Origin: Alphaproteobacteria bacterium
GTDB taxonomy: Bacteria; Pseudomonadota; Alphaproteobacteria; Rickettsiales; VGDC01
DNA length: 32,344 bases
Assembly (NCBI GenBank): GCA_022450665.1
Contig: JAKUPQ010000023.1
Location: 1-32,344 of the forward strand
Reading direction: 5' to 3'
A model generated the notes under the pieces. It saw nothing but the letters and a program-made list of their open reading frames with translations. It was not told where the DNA came from and did not search any database. Numbering within the stretch: position 1 is the stretch's first letter; the number at the start of each line of letters is the position of its first letter. The position numbers and the translations under genes are program-made. Shown one piece after another: positions 20,213-29,498 of the stretch.

Positions 20213-20642
20213 TGTCTTTTCTTTCAATTTATCTGGGCTGCATTCGCAACCGGTGTTTTAAGGTTGATGCAGTTCTAACCCAGCGAAGAATGAATGAGAA
20301 ATGCCATAATCACCAAAGCCCATGCAAAAAACGCATACCTAATAATAGCTGCCTCATATTGTGGATAATATGAATAACCATCTATATATAGTGGTAATTC
20401 TACAGTTTATGATATCAGAGCATAAACGCGTTTCTTGGCAACGCACAAAATTAAAAAATCAAATCGCAGCGATAACGACAAGATTAATTCACAAATATAA
20501 CTAAAGCATACGCAATATGCCCAAAGTGTTAACGCATTAACCAAATATTAAATTTCTTCCTGTTGATTTGTATAAGGGCGCAAATTCTGCTATGTTATTA
20601 GCTCACCCCAAATAACTAACAAAAAACAACCATGGGAGTGCA
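20213..20642. other. Intergenic region, 430 bases
   Basis: This AT-rich stretch lies between the divergently transcribed lipoprotein gene and the 90-residue gene. It contains a CtrA-like box at 20537-20551 and a possible -10 TATAAG at 20571-20576. A 44-codon minus-strand frame (20275-20406) has no usable start codon. No tRNA, terminator or repeat was recognised here. Confidence 0.6.
20537..20551 (+). promoter_or_regulatory. CtrA-like box upstream of the 90-residue gene
   Basis: TTAACCAAATATTAA is an exact TTAA-N7-TTAA match to the CtrA consensus. It is 91 bases upstream of the start codon, and 19 bases before TATAAG (20571-20576), so it would overlap the -35 region, the usual place for CtrA-activated promoters. 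A near-identical box occurs at 26180-26194. Confidence 0.55.
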
Positions 20643-20915
20643 ATGTCGCTATTCAATACCATCGTTAAAGGATTAGAGAATTTCTTCTCTAATCCTCCTC
20701 AGCCAACTTCCGTACAATCATCTGAAGATGAAGCGGAGCATTTGGCACTGCTTACACAATCGGCTAATCGAATTCGCGACACTTTGGGAGCTATAGAAAG
20801 CGGCAGATTAATTGCCGACTCATCTGTCACGACCAATGCCGCCACTACCGCACAAATGCGTTATCAAGATTTAATTGCTCAGCCAAAGCCTGACACCCGT
20901 GAGATTTCACGTTAG
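20643..20915 (+). CDS. 90-residue protein of unknown function
   Basis: I do not recognise this protein. It is soluble, with an N-terminal amphipathic segment (SLFNTIVKGLENFFSN), a Pro-containing linker, an acidic stretch (SSEDEAEHLALL) and a helical middle (SANRIRDTLGAIESGRLIAD). There is no signal peptide or Cys. GGGAG lies four bases before the ATG. It stands on the plus strand against the tail genes, downstream of a CtrA-like box. An 11-bp perfect hairpin lies within its first 20 codons. It ends 20 bases from the stop of the convergent DUF2793 gene. Confidence 0.7.
   Translation: MSLFNTIVKGLENFFSNPPQPTSVQSSEDEAEHLALLTQSANRIRDTLGAIESGRLIADSSVTTNAATTAQMRYQDLIAQPKPDTREISR
20670..20695 (+). 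repeat. Perfect 11-bp hairpin inside the start of the 90-residue gene
   Basis: GGATTAGAGAA (20670-20680) and TTCTCTAATCC (20685-20695) are perfect inverted arms around TTTC, 28-53 bases after the start of the ATG. In mRNA it would form a stable stem soon after initiation. It may control translation or decay, or bind a protein in DNA. Confidence 0.6.
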
Positions 20916-20935
20916 TAGCCTATGATAAGAGGCTA
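20916..20935. terminator. Possible shared hairpin between convergent genes
   Basis: TAGCCT and AGGCTA form a six-base stem with an eight-base loop, filling exactly the gap between the two stop codons. There is no T tract, so termination is only a possibility. Confidence 0.3.
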
Positions 20936-21589
20936 TTATGCTGCACTATCCCCCGATAATATATATTCAGCACTACTACCATCGCTATTTGACAACACAA
21001 ACAACTTACATAATGCATATTGTCCTGCTGTTTTGGTGTGCGACTGTCTATGCCGTAATATAGCTCCTGAAGCAGCACTAAACGTTACCGCACCCGCAGC
21101 TACTTGCAGCACCGTACATTCAAATCCTGCCGGCAAATCATTCGGCAATGTCATTGTGATCGCCGAGGCATTATCGCAAGTTATCAGATCACCGCGATCC
21201 GTTACAGCCAGAGTATAACCAGTTGCAATTTGCGTGTTTATCGCAGAACGCATCGAATAATTTGCCACCCATGCAGCGCCATCATATACATAAAATCTGG
21301 ATTCATCTGCCACCCACAACGTCATACCCGAATTTGGAACAATAAAACGCCAGATTTGCTCAAAATACGCTATTTCGCCATCATGGCCAGCCCAGTCCTC
21401 TGTTGCTCCCGAAGCGATAATGTACATATCACCTTCAGCCGGACTAGCGGGTGGCACTGCTAAATCCTTATCCAATCCATGCCCATTCAGCAAAGCATCT
21501 ATGCGCGTAAACGCCATATTAACCGTTATCTCTTTTTGCGCTTGCGACTGCTCAACAAGCGTCATCCCCAAATTTGGAGTAGTTGCCAT
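20936..21589 (-). CDS. DUF2793 family phage/GTA tail-associated protein
   Basis: The N-terminal 110 residues match the DUF2793 pattern: TPNLGMTLVEQSQAQKEITV with NMAFTRIDALL, then PPASPAEGDMYIIASGATEDWAGHDGEIA and WRFIVPNSGMTLWVADE. This domain is found in alphaproteobacterial phages and GTA-like clusters near the tail-tip gene, where it probably belongs to a fibre or tip structure. The C-terminal 100 residues (GYTLAVTDRGDLITCDNAS onward) are a beta-rich module. AAGGA lies six bases before the ATG. It follows the TIM-barrel tail gene on the same strand, with the PH-SHOCT gene wedged between them on the opposite strand. The molecular role of DUF2793 is unknown to me. Confidence 0.8.
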   Translation of the reverse strand: MATTPNLGMTLVEQSQAQKEITVNMAFTRIDALLNGHGLDKDLAVPPASPAEGDMYIIASGATEDWAGHDGEIAYFEQIWRFIVPNSGMTLWVADESRFYVYDGAAWVANYSMRSAINTQIATGYTLAVTDRGDLITCDNASAITMTLPNDLPAGFECTVLQVAAGAVTFSAASGAILRHRQSHTKTAGQYALCKLFVLSNSDGSSAEYILSGDSAA

Positions 21590-21667
21590 AACAAATCCTT
21601 AATGTTAAATATTAATAGGTTAAATGCATATTGATAGCATTAATTAACAAACTGCTTGTGCAAGTTA

Positions 21668-21696
21668 TTGACCTTGCTTGTACAATAGATCATAGT
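21668..21696 (+). promoter_or_regulatory. Candidate promoter of the PH-SHOCT gene
   Basis: TTGACC (21668-21673) is followed after 17 bases by CATAGT (21691-21696), 26 bases before the ATG. Good -35, moderate -10. Confidence 0.45.
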
Positions 21697-21722
21697 AAAA
21701 AAAACAACTGCGAGAGTCCGTT

Positions 21723-22358
21723 ATGCCCACAATGAAGCAAGTCAATGATCAAATCGAAAAGCTTCCTTCATCCGCCCGTTATATATTCGGCACAAAAAAA
21801 GAAGTTCGAAAACTTCCTTCCATTTTAGAAAATAACGAGCATATTCGCGCCTTAACCTCGGGTTATGTAGGCAGCAATACATGGTTATTAGTATGCACCG
21901 ACCGCCGCATTATCTTTCTGGATCGCGGATGGCTATACGGCTTAAAACAAATTCAAATGCCTTTAAACCGCATAAACTCCATCGATCACGAAATTGGCAT
22001 GGCCATGGGCAGCATTTCTGTTTGGGATGGTGCCACACGCATGACCGTAAACAATATCATCCGCAACAAAGTAGATGCATTTGTTAAAATTGCTAAACAG
22101 TCTATGGAAGAATACAACTATCGCGTAGCGCAATATCAGCAGCAACGCATGCAACAACAGCAACCGCAGCAACAACAGCCTGCTCCACAGCCACAGCAAG
22201 CACCTCAACCGCAACCCGCAGCAGAACTCACTCCACAGCAAAAAGCGCAGCGCATGAGCCAGCTATCTGAGCATTTAGAAAAACTTGCTGTGTTGCGGGA
22301 CAAAGGCATTCTCACCGAAGAGGAATTCCAAGAGCAAAAAACAAAAATGCTCTTATAG
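21723..22358 (+). CDS. PH-domain and SHOCT-domain protein with poly-Gln linker
   Basis: This 211-residue protein has three parts. Residues about 30-127 resemble a bacterial pleckstrin-homology domain (SGYVGSNTWLLVCTDRRIIF with LDRGW, then ISSIxxx-type strands up to VDAFVKIAK). Residues 137-165 are a Gln/Pro-rich linker (QQQQPQQQQPAPQPQQ). Residues 184-211 are a SHOCT motif (LEKLAVLRDKGILTEEEFQE), a short C-terminal domain usually found at the end of other proteins and thought to mediate oligomer contacts. There is no signal or membrane segment. GAGAG precedes the ATG. Its stop codon directly abuts the stop codon of the convergent tail gene. A link with the tail module is only positional. Confidence 0.85.
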   Translation: MPTMKQVNDQIEKLPSSARYIFGTKKEVRKLPSILENNEHIRALTSGYVGSNTWLLVCTDRRIIFLDRGWLYGLKQIQMPLNRINSIDHEIGMAMGSISVWDGATRMTVNNIIRNKVDAFVKIAKQSMEEYNYRVAQYQQQRMQQQQPQQQQPAPQPQQAPQPQPAAELTPQQKAQRMSQLSEHLEKLAVLRDKGILTEEEFQEQKTKMLL

Positions 22359-25300
22359 TTACACCACCGCTTCCGCTGCATATCCTCGACCTACAACTTG
22401 CGACATCTGATAAACCCGTAGTTTTACAGCAGGTTGCGCGGCACCAAAATCTGCAATCTGCATAGATTCCGTATATTCCACTTCATTAGAATTTACAAAT
22501 AATGTACGCACCACATTATTTTCCTCATCCAAAACATCCACTTCGTAACGCTCAAACGCTTCGTTCATAGGAATATCCACATAATCGCGCCAGCCGCCTC
22601 CTGCCCGATCGCGCCGCACCCACATAATACTAATGGTATTCGAGCTGCTCCGCGCCGCCGAAAGATGCACAGGGCTATAAGGGCGCCATCCATTGCCACC
22701 ATAGGCATAGTCTACTGTGTTAGTATTCCCCAAAGTCGCCCCTATAGTCACAGGCTTGTATAAGCGGCTAAGACCAATGCCACTATGCGATGCCACAACT
22801 TTCTCTATACGACCATTCAGCAAAACAAAACGCTCACCAACCATATGACTAGCTATAGCATATTCCGTACCTAATCGCCCGCGCAGCAGTCCGGTTAGCC
22901 GGTACTTTCCGGTCGCCAGCATCTCTGCATTAGTAAATTGCACCAACTCCTCACCTATCAAAGCCAGATTTGCTCCATTCAATACGGCAGCAAATGTCGC
23001 ATTTTCTAACCCCTCACTGCCCAGCAGCACCACATCCACAGAGCTTATTTCATCCAGCACGGTATGTTTGCCATCTGGAAGCACAGTCAGTGCCGTTCCT
23101 ACAATGGCAGGGCTGTCACTAATGGCTACTTGGCCATAACTCCCTCCCCCATCATCCGAGCGATACACAACCGCTCCACGCCATCCCGCATCCAATCCTG
23201 TGAGTGCAAAATGAAGCAATGATTGATTAGGGTCATCAAAAGGCAATATTGGCAAATCCAGTATTTCCATTTGCGTATTTCCTAACGGCACCACCACTTG
23301 CGTTCGCGATTGCGCATTGGCAGGGGGCAAATAAACATCATAACTTGCAATGTCTTCTGCGACCCCTCGCAGTCGCAGCAGCCCTGGCTTGGTTTGCAAC
23401 ACATCAACAATGCGCATGCGATGAAATGCACCATCAACATTTATCTCCACAATATCAGTAGGCTCCAGCAAACCATATTTCATTGGCACATTGCATTCAT
23501 ACTGCGTGCGACTAATCCAGCTATGATACAACCATTGATCAGCCAGCACTTTTGCCCCCTGATCCGATAGAACTAAGGGCAAACTCACCGTTTTAATTTC
23601 ACGGCTTTTGGTCACTTGCCGTTGCGAGAACTGATTCCCTTGCAAATAGTTACTACTACGATTGACATAAAGCACATTTACCTGCCGTGGCAGTTCCAAT
23701 TCTTGTTGCCTACGCACCAACACTAAGTCCTGCGCATTATTTTCTCCTTCCATCGCAATTAAATCCTGCTTATCCAGATTGGCAGCTATACCACCTCCAC
23801 GCGGTACAAATTTTATCAAACCATCCGATTCCACCGCATCAAAGAAATACGCTGCCATCAATTGTTCAATTAACCTGCGGGCATTATTTGGTGCCGCTAC
23901 TACATAGCCCTCCACCAAATCCGTCAATCGCGTTACATCAAATTCGCTATCATCCAACCCTACTTGTCGGCATAAATCCGCTACAATCGCCGCTAGTGCA
24001 GATATACCTAATTTACCATTTATCCAATGTCCGGTTTTCCACTGCCCACCATCTGCCCACACAGAAAGCAAATCAGGCCAATAAGGAAAAGGCCGTGCAT
24101 CCCATGTCCAAACGAACATACGTTCAATCATTAAGGAGTCTTTCCATTGCAACTCTGTTGCCTTCAGACCCGTGCGTTGCGCCCTAAAATCAACCCGCCC
24201 CCGCGAGAAACGAGGAAAGAATCCTTCCGAGCTATCGGGATCATAAAACACATTCGGCTGATTCGTTGCACCGTCCACACTAGGAAACCCATATTCTGTG
24301 AACCATATTGGTTTAGACTGCGGCACCCATGCTGTGGTCTGGCCGTTAGGGTTTACATGGGTGTTATTCCACCACCATGCTATATCCTTAGATGCATAGG
24401 CTGCTCCTAGGGGCTGCTTATTCGTGCGCTCTGCATCAGCATAGTAAAAATCATAGTCTTCCCCCTGCGTCCACCCATCAATCACAGCATTCACGTCGTA
24501 GCCTTGCTGCGGCGCGTCCGTGAGTGGGAAATATGCATCAATACCCACAAAATCAATGTTTGGCGATGCCCATAAACTATCCAGATTATACCATCCACCA
24601 TCCGTGTGGTGATATTCTGACCAATCCGCCGCATAAGTAATTTTTGTGCCTGCACCCATTATTCCTTTGACCGATGCTGCCAGACTTACCAACGCATCCA
24701 CCGCAGGATACACACCTGTTGCACTAGTTACTTTTGTCAAACCTATTAACTCCGAACCAATAACAAACGCGTCCACTTCCCCGTTCATTAAGTTAGCGTA
24801 ATGGATTATAAAATTATTATAACCATTAGATTTCACAAAAAAGTTTTGCACATCTGCTGCAGAACCTGTCACACGACCGCGCCAAGGCTTATCCTCTACA
24901 TCCATAAAAAACATAGGATAGAACAGCACTTTCCACCCCTTTGATTTAATTGCATTTACCAACCGCAACACACTTGCATCATCGGGCGTTCCGCCATAAC
25001 GTGGCGAATTATTCACCAATGTAATTTGCCGTGCGGTAGCGCGATTATACCCCGCCACCCCCCATAGATCCGGATTAGTTGTAGCCCCTTGCTGATACTC
25101 CACTCCCGGCACAATATTACACTGCCCCGCATCCAAGTCGGTACCAAACCACGTCACCACCAAGCCAACCCATTCCAGATTAGGCAGCGCCTCCTCCATT
25201 TGATCAAGCGCCAATAATGCATTTGCGACTCCATCCGGGTTATGCATGTTCACCGGCACCCGTGTTCCTTGCTGCACCCAATTACCTGCAACATCTTCTC

Positions 25301-26042
25301 CCGAAAGCTTTTGCTGAATTTTGGTGTCGTAAACAAACTCACCCGCACCTGGAATAAGAATTACTGATTTAATCATTTCTTCAAGAATTTCTTCTTCATT
25401 ATTATAATGTTGTGCCTTTTTATTCACTTCAAATGTAAAGTTAGGTATGCGGTTTCCATACTCTGCCAATGGAAAGTCTTCCACCACAATATAAGCTAAG
25501 CCGCGATAAGCAGGAGCAAAACCCACACCTTCAAAACCTTCTATAAAAGCATCTGGCATCTGCGCTTCATCACCCGTATAAATACGATACGTGCCTAATG
25601 ATAAATCCAGTTGTTTTGCATCTGCCCAAATCCGCAATACCGAATCTATTGACCCTTCACAAATAGCAATAGCCAGACTTACTGTATAAGAATAAGTCGT
25701 TGTATTTTGCGTCACGCCACCGCCGCCGCCTTTACCACCCCCACCTGATGTCGTGGTTGTAGTCGTGGCCACCTCCTTTATAGGGCGCGACCAAATAATA
25801 TTGCCCGCTAAACGCATAGTGCCGTAGAGCATTGGTATCATTTTACCATATGTGGAGGTTTGCACTGCTAAATCTGCAACGCGTGGCCCCTCCAAACTTG
25901 GCAGTGATCCACTACCAAACACTGTGCCATCAACAGCCGAGCCAACATAACGTCCAATGCTTGATCCAATAGCAGCACCTAATGTTCCGCCTGCTGCACC
26001 GCCCAAAGCCGAACCTACTGTACCCAGAACAATAGAAGCCAT
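22359..26042 (-). CDS. GTA/phage tail-tip protein with TIM-barrel domain (RcGTA g15-like)
   Basis: At 1227 residues this is the largest protein here. It matches the architecture of the RcGTA g15 hub/megatron protein at the tail tip. Residues 1-50 are Gly/Ala-rich (SALGGAAGGTLGAAIGSSIG), and a Gly-rich loop lies at 100-109. The GTA TIM-barrel-like domain spans about 290-670, with WKVLFYPMFFMD, the FVIGSELIGL segment (Glu431), YAADWSEYHH, NIDFVGIDAYFP and PIWFTEYGFPSVDG (Glu583). The phage-tail domain follows (about 690-900), then beta-rich C-terminal modules. Glu431 and Glu583 sit where glycosidase acid/base and nucleophile residues would be, so wall or envelope glycan cleavage is possible. 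GAGG lies five bases before the ATG. The frame is intact. Confidence 0.93.
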   Translation of the reverse strand: MASIVLGTVGSALGGAAGGTLGAAIGSSIGRYVGSAVDGTVFGSGSLPSLEGPRVADLAVQTSTYGKMIPMLYGTMRLAGNIIWSRPIKEVATTTTTTSGGGGKGGGGGVTQNTTTYSYTVSLAIAICEGSIDSVLRIWADAKQLDLSLGTYRIYTGDEAQMPDAFIEGFEGVGFAPAYRGLAYIVVEDFPLAEYGNRIPNFTFEVNKKAQHYNNEEEILEEMIKSVILIPGAGEFVYDTKIQQKLSGEDVAGNWVQQGTRVPVNMHNPDGVANALLALDQMEEALPNLEWVGLVVTWFGTDLDAGQCNIVPGVEYQQGATTNPDLWGVAGYNRATARQITLVNNSPRYGGTPDDASVLRLVNAIKSKGWKVLFYPMFFMDVEDKPWRGRVTGSAADVQNFFVKSNGYNNFIIHYANLMNGEVDAFVIGSELIGLTKVTSATGVYPAVDALVSLAASVKGIMGAGTKITYAADWSEYHHTDGGWYNLDSLWASPNIDFVGIDAYFPLTDAPQQGYDVNAVIDGWTQGEDYDFYYADAERTNKQPLGAAYASKDIAWWWNNTHVNPNGQTTAWVPQSKPIWFTEYGFPSVDGATNQPNVFYDPDSSEGFFPRFSRGRVDFRAQRTGLKATELQWKDSLMIERMFVWTWDARPFPYWPDLLSVWADGGQWKTGHWINGKLGISALAAIVADLCRQVGLDDSEFDVTRLTDLVEGYVVAAPNNARRLIEQLMAAYFFDAVESDGLIKFVPRGGGIAANLDKQDLIAMEGENNAQDLVLVRRQQELELPRQVNVLYVNRSSNYLQGNQFSQRQVTKSREIKTVSLPLVLSDQGAKVLADQWLYHSWISRTQYECNVPMKYGLLEPTDIVEINVDGAFHRMRIVDVLQTKPGLLRLRGVAEDIASYDVYLPPANAQSRTQVVVPLGNTQMEILDLPILPFDDPNQSLLHFALTGLDAGWRGAVVYRSDDGGGSYGQVAISDSPAIVGTALTVLPDGKHTVLDEISSVDVVLLGSEGLENATFAAVLNGANLALIGEELVQFTNAEMLATGKYRLTGLLRGRLGTEYAIASHMVGERFVLLNGRIEKVVASHSGIGLSRLYKPVTIGATLGNTNTVDYAYGGNGWRPYSPVHLSAARSSSNTISIMWVRRDRAGGGWRDYVDIPMNEAFERYEVDVLDEENNVVRTLFVNSNEVEYTESMQIADFGAAQPAVKLRVYQMSQVVGRGYAAEAVV

Positions 26043-26101
26043 AAATACCTCAAATTATATTAATGAATTTAGTTTTTAAATATGATGCAATAACGAAAAA
26101 T

Positions 26102-26135
26102 ATAGCATTTTCCTGATGTTTTATATAAATGCTAT
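26102..26135. repeat. 9-bp inverted repeat in a divergent promoter region
   Basis: ATAGCATTT (26102-26110) and AAATGCTAT (26127-26135) are perfect inverted arms 16 bases apart, a spacing suited to a dimeric regulator. They lie between the tail-tip gene and the divergent lipoprotein gene. Confidence 0.5.
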
Positions 26136-26179
26136 TGTTAACTATTACATAAGAGTTTATGCGATTTACATTGACACAC

Positions 26180-26194
26180 TTAACCAAATGTTAA
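26180..26194 (+). promoter_or_regulatory. CtrA-like box upstream of the 149-residue lipoprotein gene
   Basis: TTAACCAAATGTTAA matches TTAA-N7-TTAA exactly and differs from the box at 20537 in one base. TTTCT follows within three bases in both places. TATAAT (26206-26211) or TATAAA (26217-26222) could be the -10. Confidence 0.55.
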
Positions 26195-26253
26195 TTTCTA
26201 TGCCATATAATTAACTTATAAAAACTGAATAACTTTTATACGTGAGCAGTGAA

Positions 26254-26703
26254 ATGGCTATAGTAAAAATCCTCAAAAAATTCCTACCCGTCGCTTTGCT
26301 GGCTTTCCTAACAAGCGCCTGTGGAAATCATGTGAATTATGTATCTGCTAAAGATCGCAGCTATAATGTAGTACCCACCTTCGCTACCGAGAAAATTACA
26401 CATAACAGTTGGGTAGAGAAAAAAGAGAACGCCTCCTCTGCCCTTTACACTTCCAGCAACATGGTTGCGCGTGAGCGTTATCACAGCGCTGTATTGGGCA
26501 AGCTTCACCTCAAACAGTCTGATGATCCTCAGGTAGAATCCACCACCTTTACGATTCGTAAAGAAAATCGCGCCTATATGGCCGAAACTCCCATCATGAG
26601 CTCTTTTAAAATGGGTAAAAAAGACGTGACCTCTAACTTCGCCTTTGGCCATCATAAAGATCATAAAATCATGGCTGGCATCACATTTAGAATGCCCTTC
26701 TAA
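26254..26703 (+). CDS. Putative lipoprotein of unknown function
   Basis: This 149-residue protein has a signal peptide (MAIVKILKKFLPVALLAFL) and a lipobox ending at Cys23 (LTSAC), so it is probably lipid-anchored. The mature part is polar and basic, without further membrane segments, and ends KIMAGITFRMPF, where the terminal Phe and alternating pattern recall outer-membrane beta strands. I do not recognise a family. The ATG at 26254 is preferred; a GTG four codons upstream (26242) is possible. It is transcribed against the tail genes, after a CtrA-like box, and its stop overlaps the convergent NlpC/P60 gene by four bases. Confidence 0.75.
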   Translation: MAIVKILKKFLPVALLAFLTSACGNHVNYVSAKDRSYNVVPTFATEKITHNSWVEKKENASSALYTSSNMVARERYHSAVLGKLHLKQSDDPQVESTTFTIRKENRAYMAETPIMSSFKMGKKDVTSNFAFGHHKDHKIMAGITFRMPF

Positions 26704-28028: not shown

Positions 28029-28883
28029 CTATTCCCATTCGCTGCGCGTAGCGGCAGTTTCCAACATACGGTCAAATCCCGGAACATGCGGCTCCCCTCT
28101 GAAATTAATGGCATTATTAAACCGCGCTATACAAGTATCAAAACTCTTGTCACATCCGGCTTGCAATGTATAGCTATCGCCAATAGCAATGTCATAAGGC
28201 ATGGGCAATGCCAATGTGAACGTAGACTGATCAAATGCTTTGACTTCCATACTTAATCCAGCATTTTCTCCGTCAGTAAATGTAATTTTTCCTGCTCTGA
28301 AGTATCCATTGTTCTCATTGCGTGCATTGTCTAAAAAGACTGCATTGCTTGTTACATCATCTATCGTCCCCATGACAGTGTAAGCTGCCATATCCACACC
28401 ACATTGCGCATCCCCTAATTCGGCACGGCAGGCAGGAGCATATAATTTTCCAAGCTGCTGTGAAAACTTCTGTGTCAGCCCCCGCACCTCTGCCACAAAT
28501 TGCTTATTTTTTATGCTAATTTCGCCTAACCACCCCCGGCGCAAAATAAGCTTGCCAGATTCAGGCGCCTGATAATTCACTTGAAAAATTTCTATTTCAG
28601 CAAAATCATATATTCCAGCCATCACATCACGCTCTTCAATGGTGCTGGCATCCAACATTCCTTGCACATCCAGATTATCTACATTCAAGTTTGATGACGC
28701 AGAGATAGCCGTTGGCGTAAATCCGGTTTGCGCCAAATATACGACTCCACCCACAGTTAAATCCACATCATGATCAGTAAAACCCTGCATGGTTTCATCA
28801 CGGCGTGTCAATTTCCAACATGTGGCAAGGGTAGTTATTTCATTTGCTAAATGGCTTTCCAAAGCGCTACTGGTAGATTTCAT
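28029..28883 (-). CDS. Phage/GTA tail protein, DUF2163/BR0599 family (RcGTA g13-like)
   Basis: This 284-residue protein matches the DUF2163 phage family (TIGR02218), a tail-hub component in RcGTA-like particles. Family features are the N-terminal CWKLTRRDETMQGFTDHD, the middle ALxxRRGWLGE-like segment (LILRRGWLGEI), the Cys-containing block CRAELGDAQCGVD, and the C-terminal GCDKSFDTCIARFNNAINFRGEPHVPG. The cysteines are a family feature, and RcGTA g13 homologues have been proposed to bind an iron-sulphur cluster. GGGAG precedes the ATG by eight bases. It follows the g12-like gene by 15 bases. Confidence 0.92.
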   Translation of the reverse strand: MKSTSSALESHLANEITTLATCWKLTRRDETMQGFTDHDVDLTVGGVVYLAQTGFTPTAISASSNLNVDNLDVQGMLDASTIEERDVMAGIYDFAEIEIFQVNYQAPESGKLILRRGWLGEISIKNKQFVAEVRGLTQKFSQQLGKLYAPACRAELGDAQCGVDMAAYTVMGTIDDVTSNAVFLDNARNENNGYFRAGKITFTDGENAGLSMEVKAFDQSTFTLALPMPYDIAIGDSYTLQAGCDKSFDTCIARFNNAINFRGEPHVPGFDRMLETAATRSEWE

Positions 28884-28898: not shown

Positions 28899-29498
28899 TT
28901 ATACACGTAATTCAACCAAAGGGATGTTTCCCCAGGAATACACCCCAAAATTATCCAATCGCGCCGATAAGCTATCCGTATCGAAGCGTACTGGCACATC
29001 AAATTCAAAATCAGCGCTTATAACTGCTCCCGCACTGGGAGCCACAGAAAAGCTGATATCCCCCATAGTGTCGTCAACACTAAAGCCTGTGCTTTGCAAT
29101 ACACTATCCACATATAATTTCACACTCGAAGCAACAGGCTTAGTGATCACTCGCACATCATCCACGCCGCCGCTGATATAATGCTTAACCATCTGAAAAT
29201 TCTGTGTTGCACCATCGCCTGTAGCAAGAATTTGACCAATAGCTTCGTAATCGCTCCAATCTTTAAATCGAAACCCATAAGCGCGTCCTTTACGGGCGCG
29301 AAAAAAGGCAATCAGATTGTCCAGCTGCGTCTGAGTTTTCACTCCATGCGCTACGTCATATCGTGTGCGGGCATATTCCCAATTAATATTTCGCTGCTCA
29401 TGGCCGCTATTAGTCATCACTACATCTGTCGAATAGCTAGGACCACCAGAAGACCCATAAGCAATATCCTCAGGGAAACGAATTTCTACAAAGCTCAT
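28899..29498 (-). CDS. Phage/GTA tail protein, DUF2460 family (RcGTA g12-like)
   Basis: This 199-residue protein matches the DUF2460 family (TIGR02217), which forms the distal tail ring in RcGTA-like particles. Typical features are FVEIRFPEDIAYGSSGGPSY, ERRNxxW-like EQRNINWEYARTRYDVAHGVKT and FFRARKGRAYGFRFKDWSDY. The C-terminal half is beta-rich. A strong AGGAGG lies five bases before the ATG. It is the first gene of the minus-strand tail unit, 36 bases after a terminator; the tape-measure gene that precedes g12 in RcGTA is not here. Confidence 0.93.
   Translation of the reverse strand: MSFVEIRFPEDIAYGSSGGPSYSTDVVMTNSGHEQRNINWEYARTRYDVAHGVKTQTQLDNLIAFFRARKGRAYGFRFKDWSDYEAIGQILATGDGATQNFQMVKHYISGGVDDVRVITKPVASSVKLYVDSVLQSTGFSVDDTMGDISFSVAPSAGAVISADFEFDVPVRFDTDSLSARLDNFGVYSWGNIPLVELRV

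Follow-up and report, generated by a model that had tools for sequence, protein, structure and literature searches.

The DNA analysed here, called the window throughout, is a whole contig of 32,344 nucleotides (JAKUPQ010000023.1; C23) from the 2.48-Mb draft genome, in 154 contigs, of an alphaproteobacterium of the order Rickettsiales (GCA_022450665.1; G000). Its right third carries the minus-strand tail genes of a gene transfer agent (GTA). Between two of these, the NlpC peptidase gene and the megatron gene, lies the sequence TTAACCAAATGTTAA (26180-26194, plus strand), an exact match to the CtrA-type motif TTAA-N7-TTAA. We propose, at a probability of about 0.8, that this box is the CtrA-activated promoter site of a lipoprotein gene embedded in the cluster antisense to the tail genes, and that it does not serve the tail genes themselves. 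The preliminary description of this DNA had pointed to two CtrA-like boxes flanking the tail genes and to a plausible cell-cycle or GTA regulon; the conserved CtrA-type promoter of the antisense lipoprotein is a point beyond that observation.

Eleven bases after the 26180 box stands a -10 element, TATAAT (26206-26211, plus strand), at the spacing that is the genome-wide peak for such boxes, and it is followed by the plus-strand gene for the 149-residue lipoprotein (26254-26703, with an alternative GTG start at 26242). Assuming the usual distance from a -10 element to the transcription start, here 6 or 7 bases, the 15 bases of the box, the 11 of the spacer and the 6 of the -10 element place the box at about -38 or -39 of the predicted start. 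For Caulobacter ctrA, the full motif has been placed at -39 in the P2 promoter, which is activated, and at -14 in P3, which is repressed (PMC4287350; this and the other sources below are cited for those portions of their text that were available). The 26180 box would thus seem to be at an activating place relative to its start, and we infer both that CtrA binds it and that the effect is activation rather than repression.

The box goes with the lipoprotein in relatives. Gaps were counted as wide when more than 150 and less than 4000 bp separate the megatron start from the end of NlpC, and among 80 named loci and the window there are 20 such gaps, 11 with an antisense lipoprotein of one family and 9 without. 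Nine of the 11 contain the exact box, and none of the 9 does (chance 55/167960, calculated by hand). Since the family was first spotted with the box hits in view, a protein profile built from 12 members provides the cleaner, box-blind test. With this profile, a single copy is found in each of 19 genomes among 343 of the order; 13 copies are embedded in the GTA cluster and 6 lie elsewhere. The embedded set, which comprises the 11 wide-gap members, L083 (whose NlpC gene would lie off the contig end) and L173, comes from Rickettsiales-type genomes of five families and 11 genera; one relative, of the same family and another genus, has boxes before a lipoprotein gene in the corresponding position. 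In the 200 bp before the chosen start, 11 of the 13 have the exact box (shuffles: mean 0.25, maximum 4, 3000 rounds), and 9 of the 13 have box, N11 spacing and TANNNT together (shuffles: mean 0.006, maximum 1). Among 894 other open reading frames (ORFs) of at least 100 residues in the same loci, 26 have the box and 6 the full motif; three of the 26 are the lipoprotein with a longer start and six are gap-sharing megatron genes, leaving 17. The non-embedded homologues (L171, L172 and L174-L177) have the exact box in two of six cases. At about 1.2 kb from one of them, L171, there is an NlpC-like match, and this locus may represent a variant GTA site.

Eleven promoters, those of ten embedded homologues and of L171, were aligned; the TTAA pair is invariant in this alignment by the way the rows were selected. 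The first TTAA is followed by C in 9 of the 11, TTAAC occurs on at least one side in 10, and the T, the A and the final T of the -10 element are each found in 10. The 40 bases 5' of the box show a mean identity of 29%. Conservation is, in these sequences, confined to the promoter, and with flanks so little alike the box is therefore not a mere trace of recent common descent.

Could the box instead control the divergent megatron gene, which would amount to direct CtrA control of GTA tail synthesis, as a GTA regulon link would have it? In principle, a CtrA site can function whichever way it faces, and the megatron start is 138 bp away from the box within the intergenic gap that the two genes share. 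Yet the -10 element faces the lipoprotein, and the box is found in none of the nine lipoprotein-free wide gaps and in no short gap. In L058, L074 and L079, where antisense genes intervene, the box adjoins the lipoprotein and is 626-1028 bp away from the megatron. Because it stays beside the lipoprotein despite the intervening genes, and because the -10 element points at that gene, we take the lipoprotein to be the target; the tail genes do not seem to be the target, and control of the megatron gene is a quite improbable reading.

Which regulator, then, would occupy the lipoprotein promoter? A ctrA gene, whose presence the preliminary description had proposed to check, is found in G000 (406.7 bits against a cut-off of 350). 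It is also over the cut-off in 17 of the 18 other lipoprotein carriers, the eighteenth (G143, 73% complete) matching only partially, at 195 bits. With the N11 spacing taken from the lipoprotein set, the test in G000 used the matches listed (50 of 67 bare sites), read both ways to give 100 oriented boxes. TANNNT stands at N11 in 18 of these, only one of which is the lipoprotein, whereas 25 other spacings (3-30 without 10-12) average 2.16 and reach 6 at most (Poisson p = 2e-11). The full pattern TTAA-N7-TTAA-N11-TANNNT occurs 23 times in the genome, against 9 for the reversed control. Flp pilin (PF04964) and CpaB (PF16976) genes are among the 23 sites, as are genes for four proteins with a prepilin N-methylation match (L150 just under the cut-off), a TPS exoprotein, MreC, a MASE1/CHASE sensor and malate dehydrogenase; the rest belong to no known family, overlap one another or fall within an ORF (L140). 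Before the flagellin gene (L007) stands the box TTAACCATTTATTAA, but its N11 position is occupied by CATGAT, so that the strict pattern is missed. Among genes of the motility type, for which a check had been suggested, pilus and prepilin-like genes are preceded by box and -10 element, and flagellin by a box.

The promoter might be a true one but belong to another response regulator with a CtrA-like site, and G000 does encode four further full-length OmpR-type regulators. Against this, TTAA-N7-TTAA is the canonical CtrA site (PMC9437464), and pilin, CpaB and flagellin genes are the kind of targets that CtrA has elsewhere. Moreover, Rickettsia ctrA is reported to complement a Caulobacter ctrA deletion (PMC2877005), for which reason the binding specificity of CtrA should hold. 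We consider another regulator the least probable of the alternatives weighed here.

Some features of the CtrA system in these genomes deserve mention in their own right. The CtrA family gives 50 receiver-type matches in G000, many in long proteins, a rich signalling complement for the order in a 2.5-Mb genome. Four distinct prepilin-like proteins (L146, L147, L150 and L152), of which one contains RCC1 repeats, are each preceded by a box and -10 element and form an unusual CtrA-type prepilin set. A variant motif, TTAACC-N5-TTAA, was tried and set aside, as its 10 sites show no excess over 9 for the reversed control. Across 105 genomes of the order, the full pattern exceeds its reversed control in all 15 sampled lipoprotein carriers (404 against 35, summed by hand). 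The box with its N11 -10 element is strongly above control in some families (f6, f8, f11, f22, f29); for many members of f12, f14, f15 and f28 the count is below control, which looks as though the CtrA regulon had contracted in them.

The gene behind the promoter encodes a small exported lipoprotein beside a tail-tip gene, with megatron and NlpC genes as its neighbours. Members of the family have a lipobox cysteine (12 of 12 aligned), a segment whose length varies, and a beta domain with a C-terminal strand of the type GLxxRWEF. An AlphaFold model from the alignment of 12 (mean pLDDT 72.5) has a low-confidence linker at residues 34-75, six strands from residue 78 on and block means above 90 for residues 81-140. 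The final residue is F in 11 of the 12 and Y in one; outer-membrane strands often end in such a residue, and the lipoprotein is probably located in the outer membrane, the modelled beta domain seeming small for a usual barrel. Applied to 160 contig loci and the window, the profile returns only its 12 source members; in 80 viral contigs it has no match, and in a class-wide sample it hits one of 385 genomes, namely G000. No clear PHROG, Pfam or fold match was found for the lipoprotein, and nothing below E 0.08 among the sequences of solved structures. In a search of the literature on CtrA, GTAs, lipoproteins and Rickettsiales, with most subscription journals outside it, no title or abstract opening describes the gene or its promoter; the sole mention of a lipoprotein in the available text of PMC10883770 concerns the BAM complex. 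The lipoprotein and NlpC stops are convergent and overlap by 4 bases (26700-26703), likewise in several relatives.

Several observations weigh against a CtrA-activated lipoprotein promoter. Bare TTAA-N7-TTAA has 67 sites in G000 against 112 for the reversed control pattern, and the two boxes in the window are within chance (1.24 expected; at least two in 39 of 100 shuffles). Seven of the 13 embedded homologues come from a single family, f29. Four of the six homologues outside the GTA gap are without the box, and two of the 13 embedded ones, L073 and L128, are without it in exact form, L128 having, by eye, TTAACGAAATCGTAA with one mismatch and TAAACT at N11. In L077, the -10 element (TATACT) is at N12, not N11, and L083 has the exact box and no -10 element at N11. 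Fold searches with the lipoprotein gave nothing at E 0.001 or better (maximum Z 5.2), although the absence of a match does not show a new fold.

The counts of the bare motif bear on the simplest alternative, that AT-rich gaps have produced the TTAA pairs of both boxes by chance. Two boxes in the window and fewer genomic sites than the control speak for this alternative, and it is the reading we favour for the other box of the window, at 20537. For the 26180 box, it is already contradicted, as base composition can give neither the conservation of the box nor the N11 peak; that chance explains both boxes is therefore unlikely. Motif density had been named beforehand as a possible refutation, and it gives a divided answer: the bare motif is no denser than chance and is uninformative alone, and the motif with its -10 element is above chance. 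The significance of the 26180 box comes from conservation and promoter architecture, not from the count, and this holds for that box only.

As for the two boxes together, the preliminary description was accurate in what it read from the letters. The other box, TTAACCAAATATTAA, is an exact match at 20537-20551 (plus strand), and the bases 3' of both boxes (ATTTCTTCC and TTTCTATGCC) are similar, with a shift of one base. The absence of further matches, first noted for intergenic regions, extends to the whole window, where a pattern scan finds no third TTAA-N7-TTAA. Both boxes precede plus-strand ORFs, one of 90 residues starting at 20643 and the lipoprotein starting at 26254. The evidence does not support the two as a functional pair, and the CtrA link survives for the 26180 box (ctrA present, box conserved in relatives) and not for the 20537 box. 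The latter has no promoter support: TTGATT stands at N11, and no TANNNT fits at that spacing in either orientation. The 90-residue orphan ORF that follows it (20643-20915, plus strand) has the best codon score of the six frames, and its protein has no homologue in 54 other genomes, matching its own genome alone (1 of 55). Three TTAA starts fall within 20 bases (20529, 20537 and 20548) and CtrA might contact this region, but the 20537 box is probably incidental.

We propose that phosphorylated CtrA would bind TTAA-N7-TTAA over the -35 region of the 26180 promoter, and that RNA polymerase would use the TATAAT 11 bases on, as at a sigma-70-type promoter. This promoter would drive one antisense gene, that of the small exported lipoprotein between the NlpC and megatron genes. 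The lipoprotein would then be made together with the CtrA-controlled surface programme of pili, prepilins and flagellin, and not through transcription of the GTA operon. At the cell surface it could act toward GTA particles, for instance by stopping producer or sister cells from adsorbing them; whether the role is such self-exclusion or some other one at the surface is a guess. It is tempting to propose, as a speculation with the odds well against it, that a CtrA-timed outer-membrane lipoprotein decides which Rickettsiales-type cells adsorb GTA particles, a self-exclusion or gating gene that would couple reception to the cell cycle and surface programme without GafA. DUF6456 (PF20057) is the domain that we take to be GafA-type, and it has 0 matches in G000, the Caulobacter control being positive. 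The antisense lipoprotein is a named, testable gene for how GTA-bearing cells control particle exchange, and TTAA-N7-TTAA-N11-TANNNT is a working motif with which the CtrA regulon can be read in uncultured Rickettsiales.

The surrounding tail genes are GTA genes, as had been supposed. The megatron gene (Rcc01698-like; 22359-26042, minus strand; product of 1227 residues with PF13547, PF13550 and PF23666) scores 1213.8 bits with NF048004, against an NCBIfam GTA_megatron equivalog cut-off of 800. The other minus-strand tail genes encode an NlpC/P60 phage peptidase (26700-27248; TIGR02219, below its cut-off), a DUF2335 protein, a GTA/phage baseplate hub protein (28029-28883; TIGR02218, over cut-off), a distal tail protein of the Rcc01695 family (28899-29498; TIGR02217, over cut-off) and a protein with a DUF2793 match (20936-21589). 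The order of megatron, hub and distal tail genes is that of an RcGTA-like cluster, known here from its tail genes, as the contig ends within the cluster. Named relatives of the megatron are mostly from metagenome-assembled genomes labelled Rickettsiales or Alphaproteobacteria, and its first 350 residues are matched in 195 of 262 genomes of the order. G000 holds two more megatron-like genes (C39:8812-9879, 54% identical, and C32:4729-5796, 52%, over 350 residues), which may belong to other GTA-like or prophage clusters.

Interspersed on the plus strand are the lipoprotein gene, the 90-residue orphan and a gene for a protein with a bPH_3/SHOCT match (21723-22358), between the megatron and DUF2793 genes. 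This last gene is conserved at 15 other loci, at two of which the sequence is identical, and in one contig-end fragment. Among the matches listed, none of the 17 loci has the exact box upstream of it. Beside the lipoprotein gene it makes a second antisense passenger, one that lacks a CtrA-type box. The gap between NlpC and megatron genes is a slot for varied passengers (L103, L079, L083, L128, L060, L078): that of L103 contains, by eye, a toxin-antitoxin-like pair, and those of L079, L083 and L128 a common secreted protein with YTTYKKHxPY.

How does this arrangement compare with known systems? As in Caulobacter promoters with the full motif, TTAA-N7-TTAA is near -35 (-39 at P2, about -38 or -39 here); unlike there, the promoter would serve the gene of a GTA-embedded lipoprotein, from a start deduced from sequence. 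In phages of Alphaproteobacteria, for which lytic deferment has been described, CtrA sites are bound in gel shifts (PMC9437464). They too are virus-type elements with host CtrA boxes, but the phage genomes have unusually placed groups of sites, where we find a single promoter in a domesticated element. The T5 lipoprotein Llp is encoded adjoining the gene for receptor-binding pb5 and closes the receptor from the periplasmic side (PMC9586334). Like Llp and Cor, lipoproteins of superinfection exclusion, ours is a small lipoprotein encoded beside a tail-tip or receptor-binding gene. Unlike theirs, its gene is antisense with a CtrA-type promoter, and the likeness is one of position and lipid anchor, no direct comparison with Llp or Cor having been made; Llp-like exclusion is thus a lead rather than a test. 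A further comparison is with gafA of Rhodobacter capsulatus, with a CtrA site 65-71 bases from the start codon that is conserved among species (PMC6363796). The same source, in its available part, has CtrA acting through the activator GafA without binding the RcGTA promoter, so that control is indirect only. In both promoters a CtrA site stands a short, conserved distance from where a GTA-linked gene starts, whereas the 26180 box lies within the tail cluster, upstream of an antisense lipoprotein gene. If our proposal is correct, it would provide a second, direct link between a host regulator and a GTA locus, beside the indirect Rhodobacter route.

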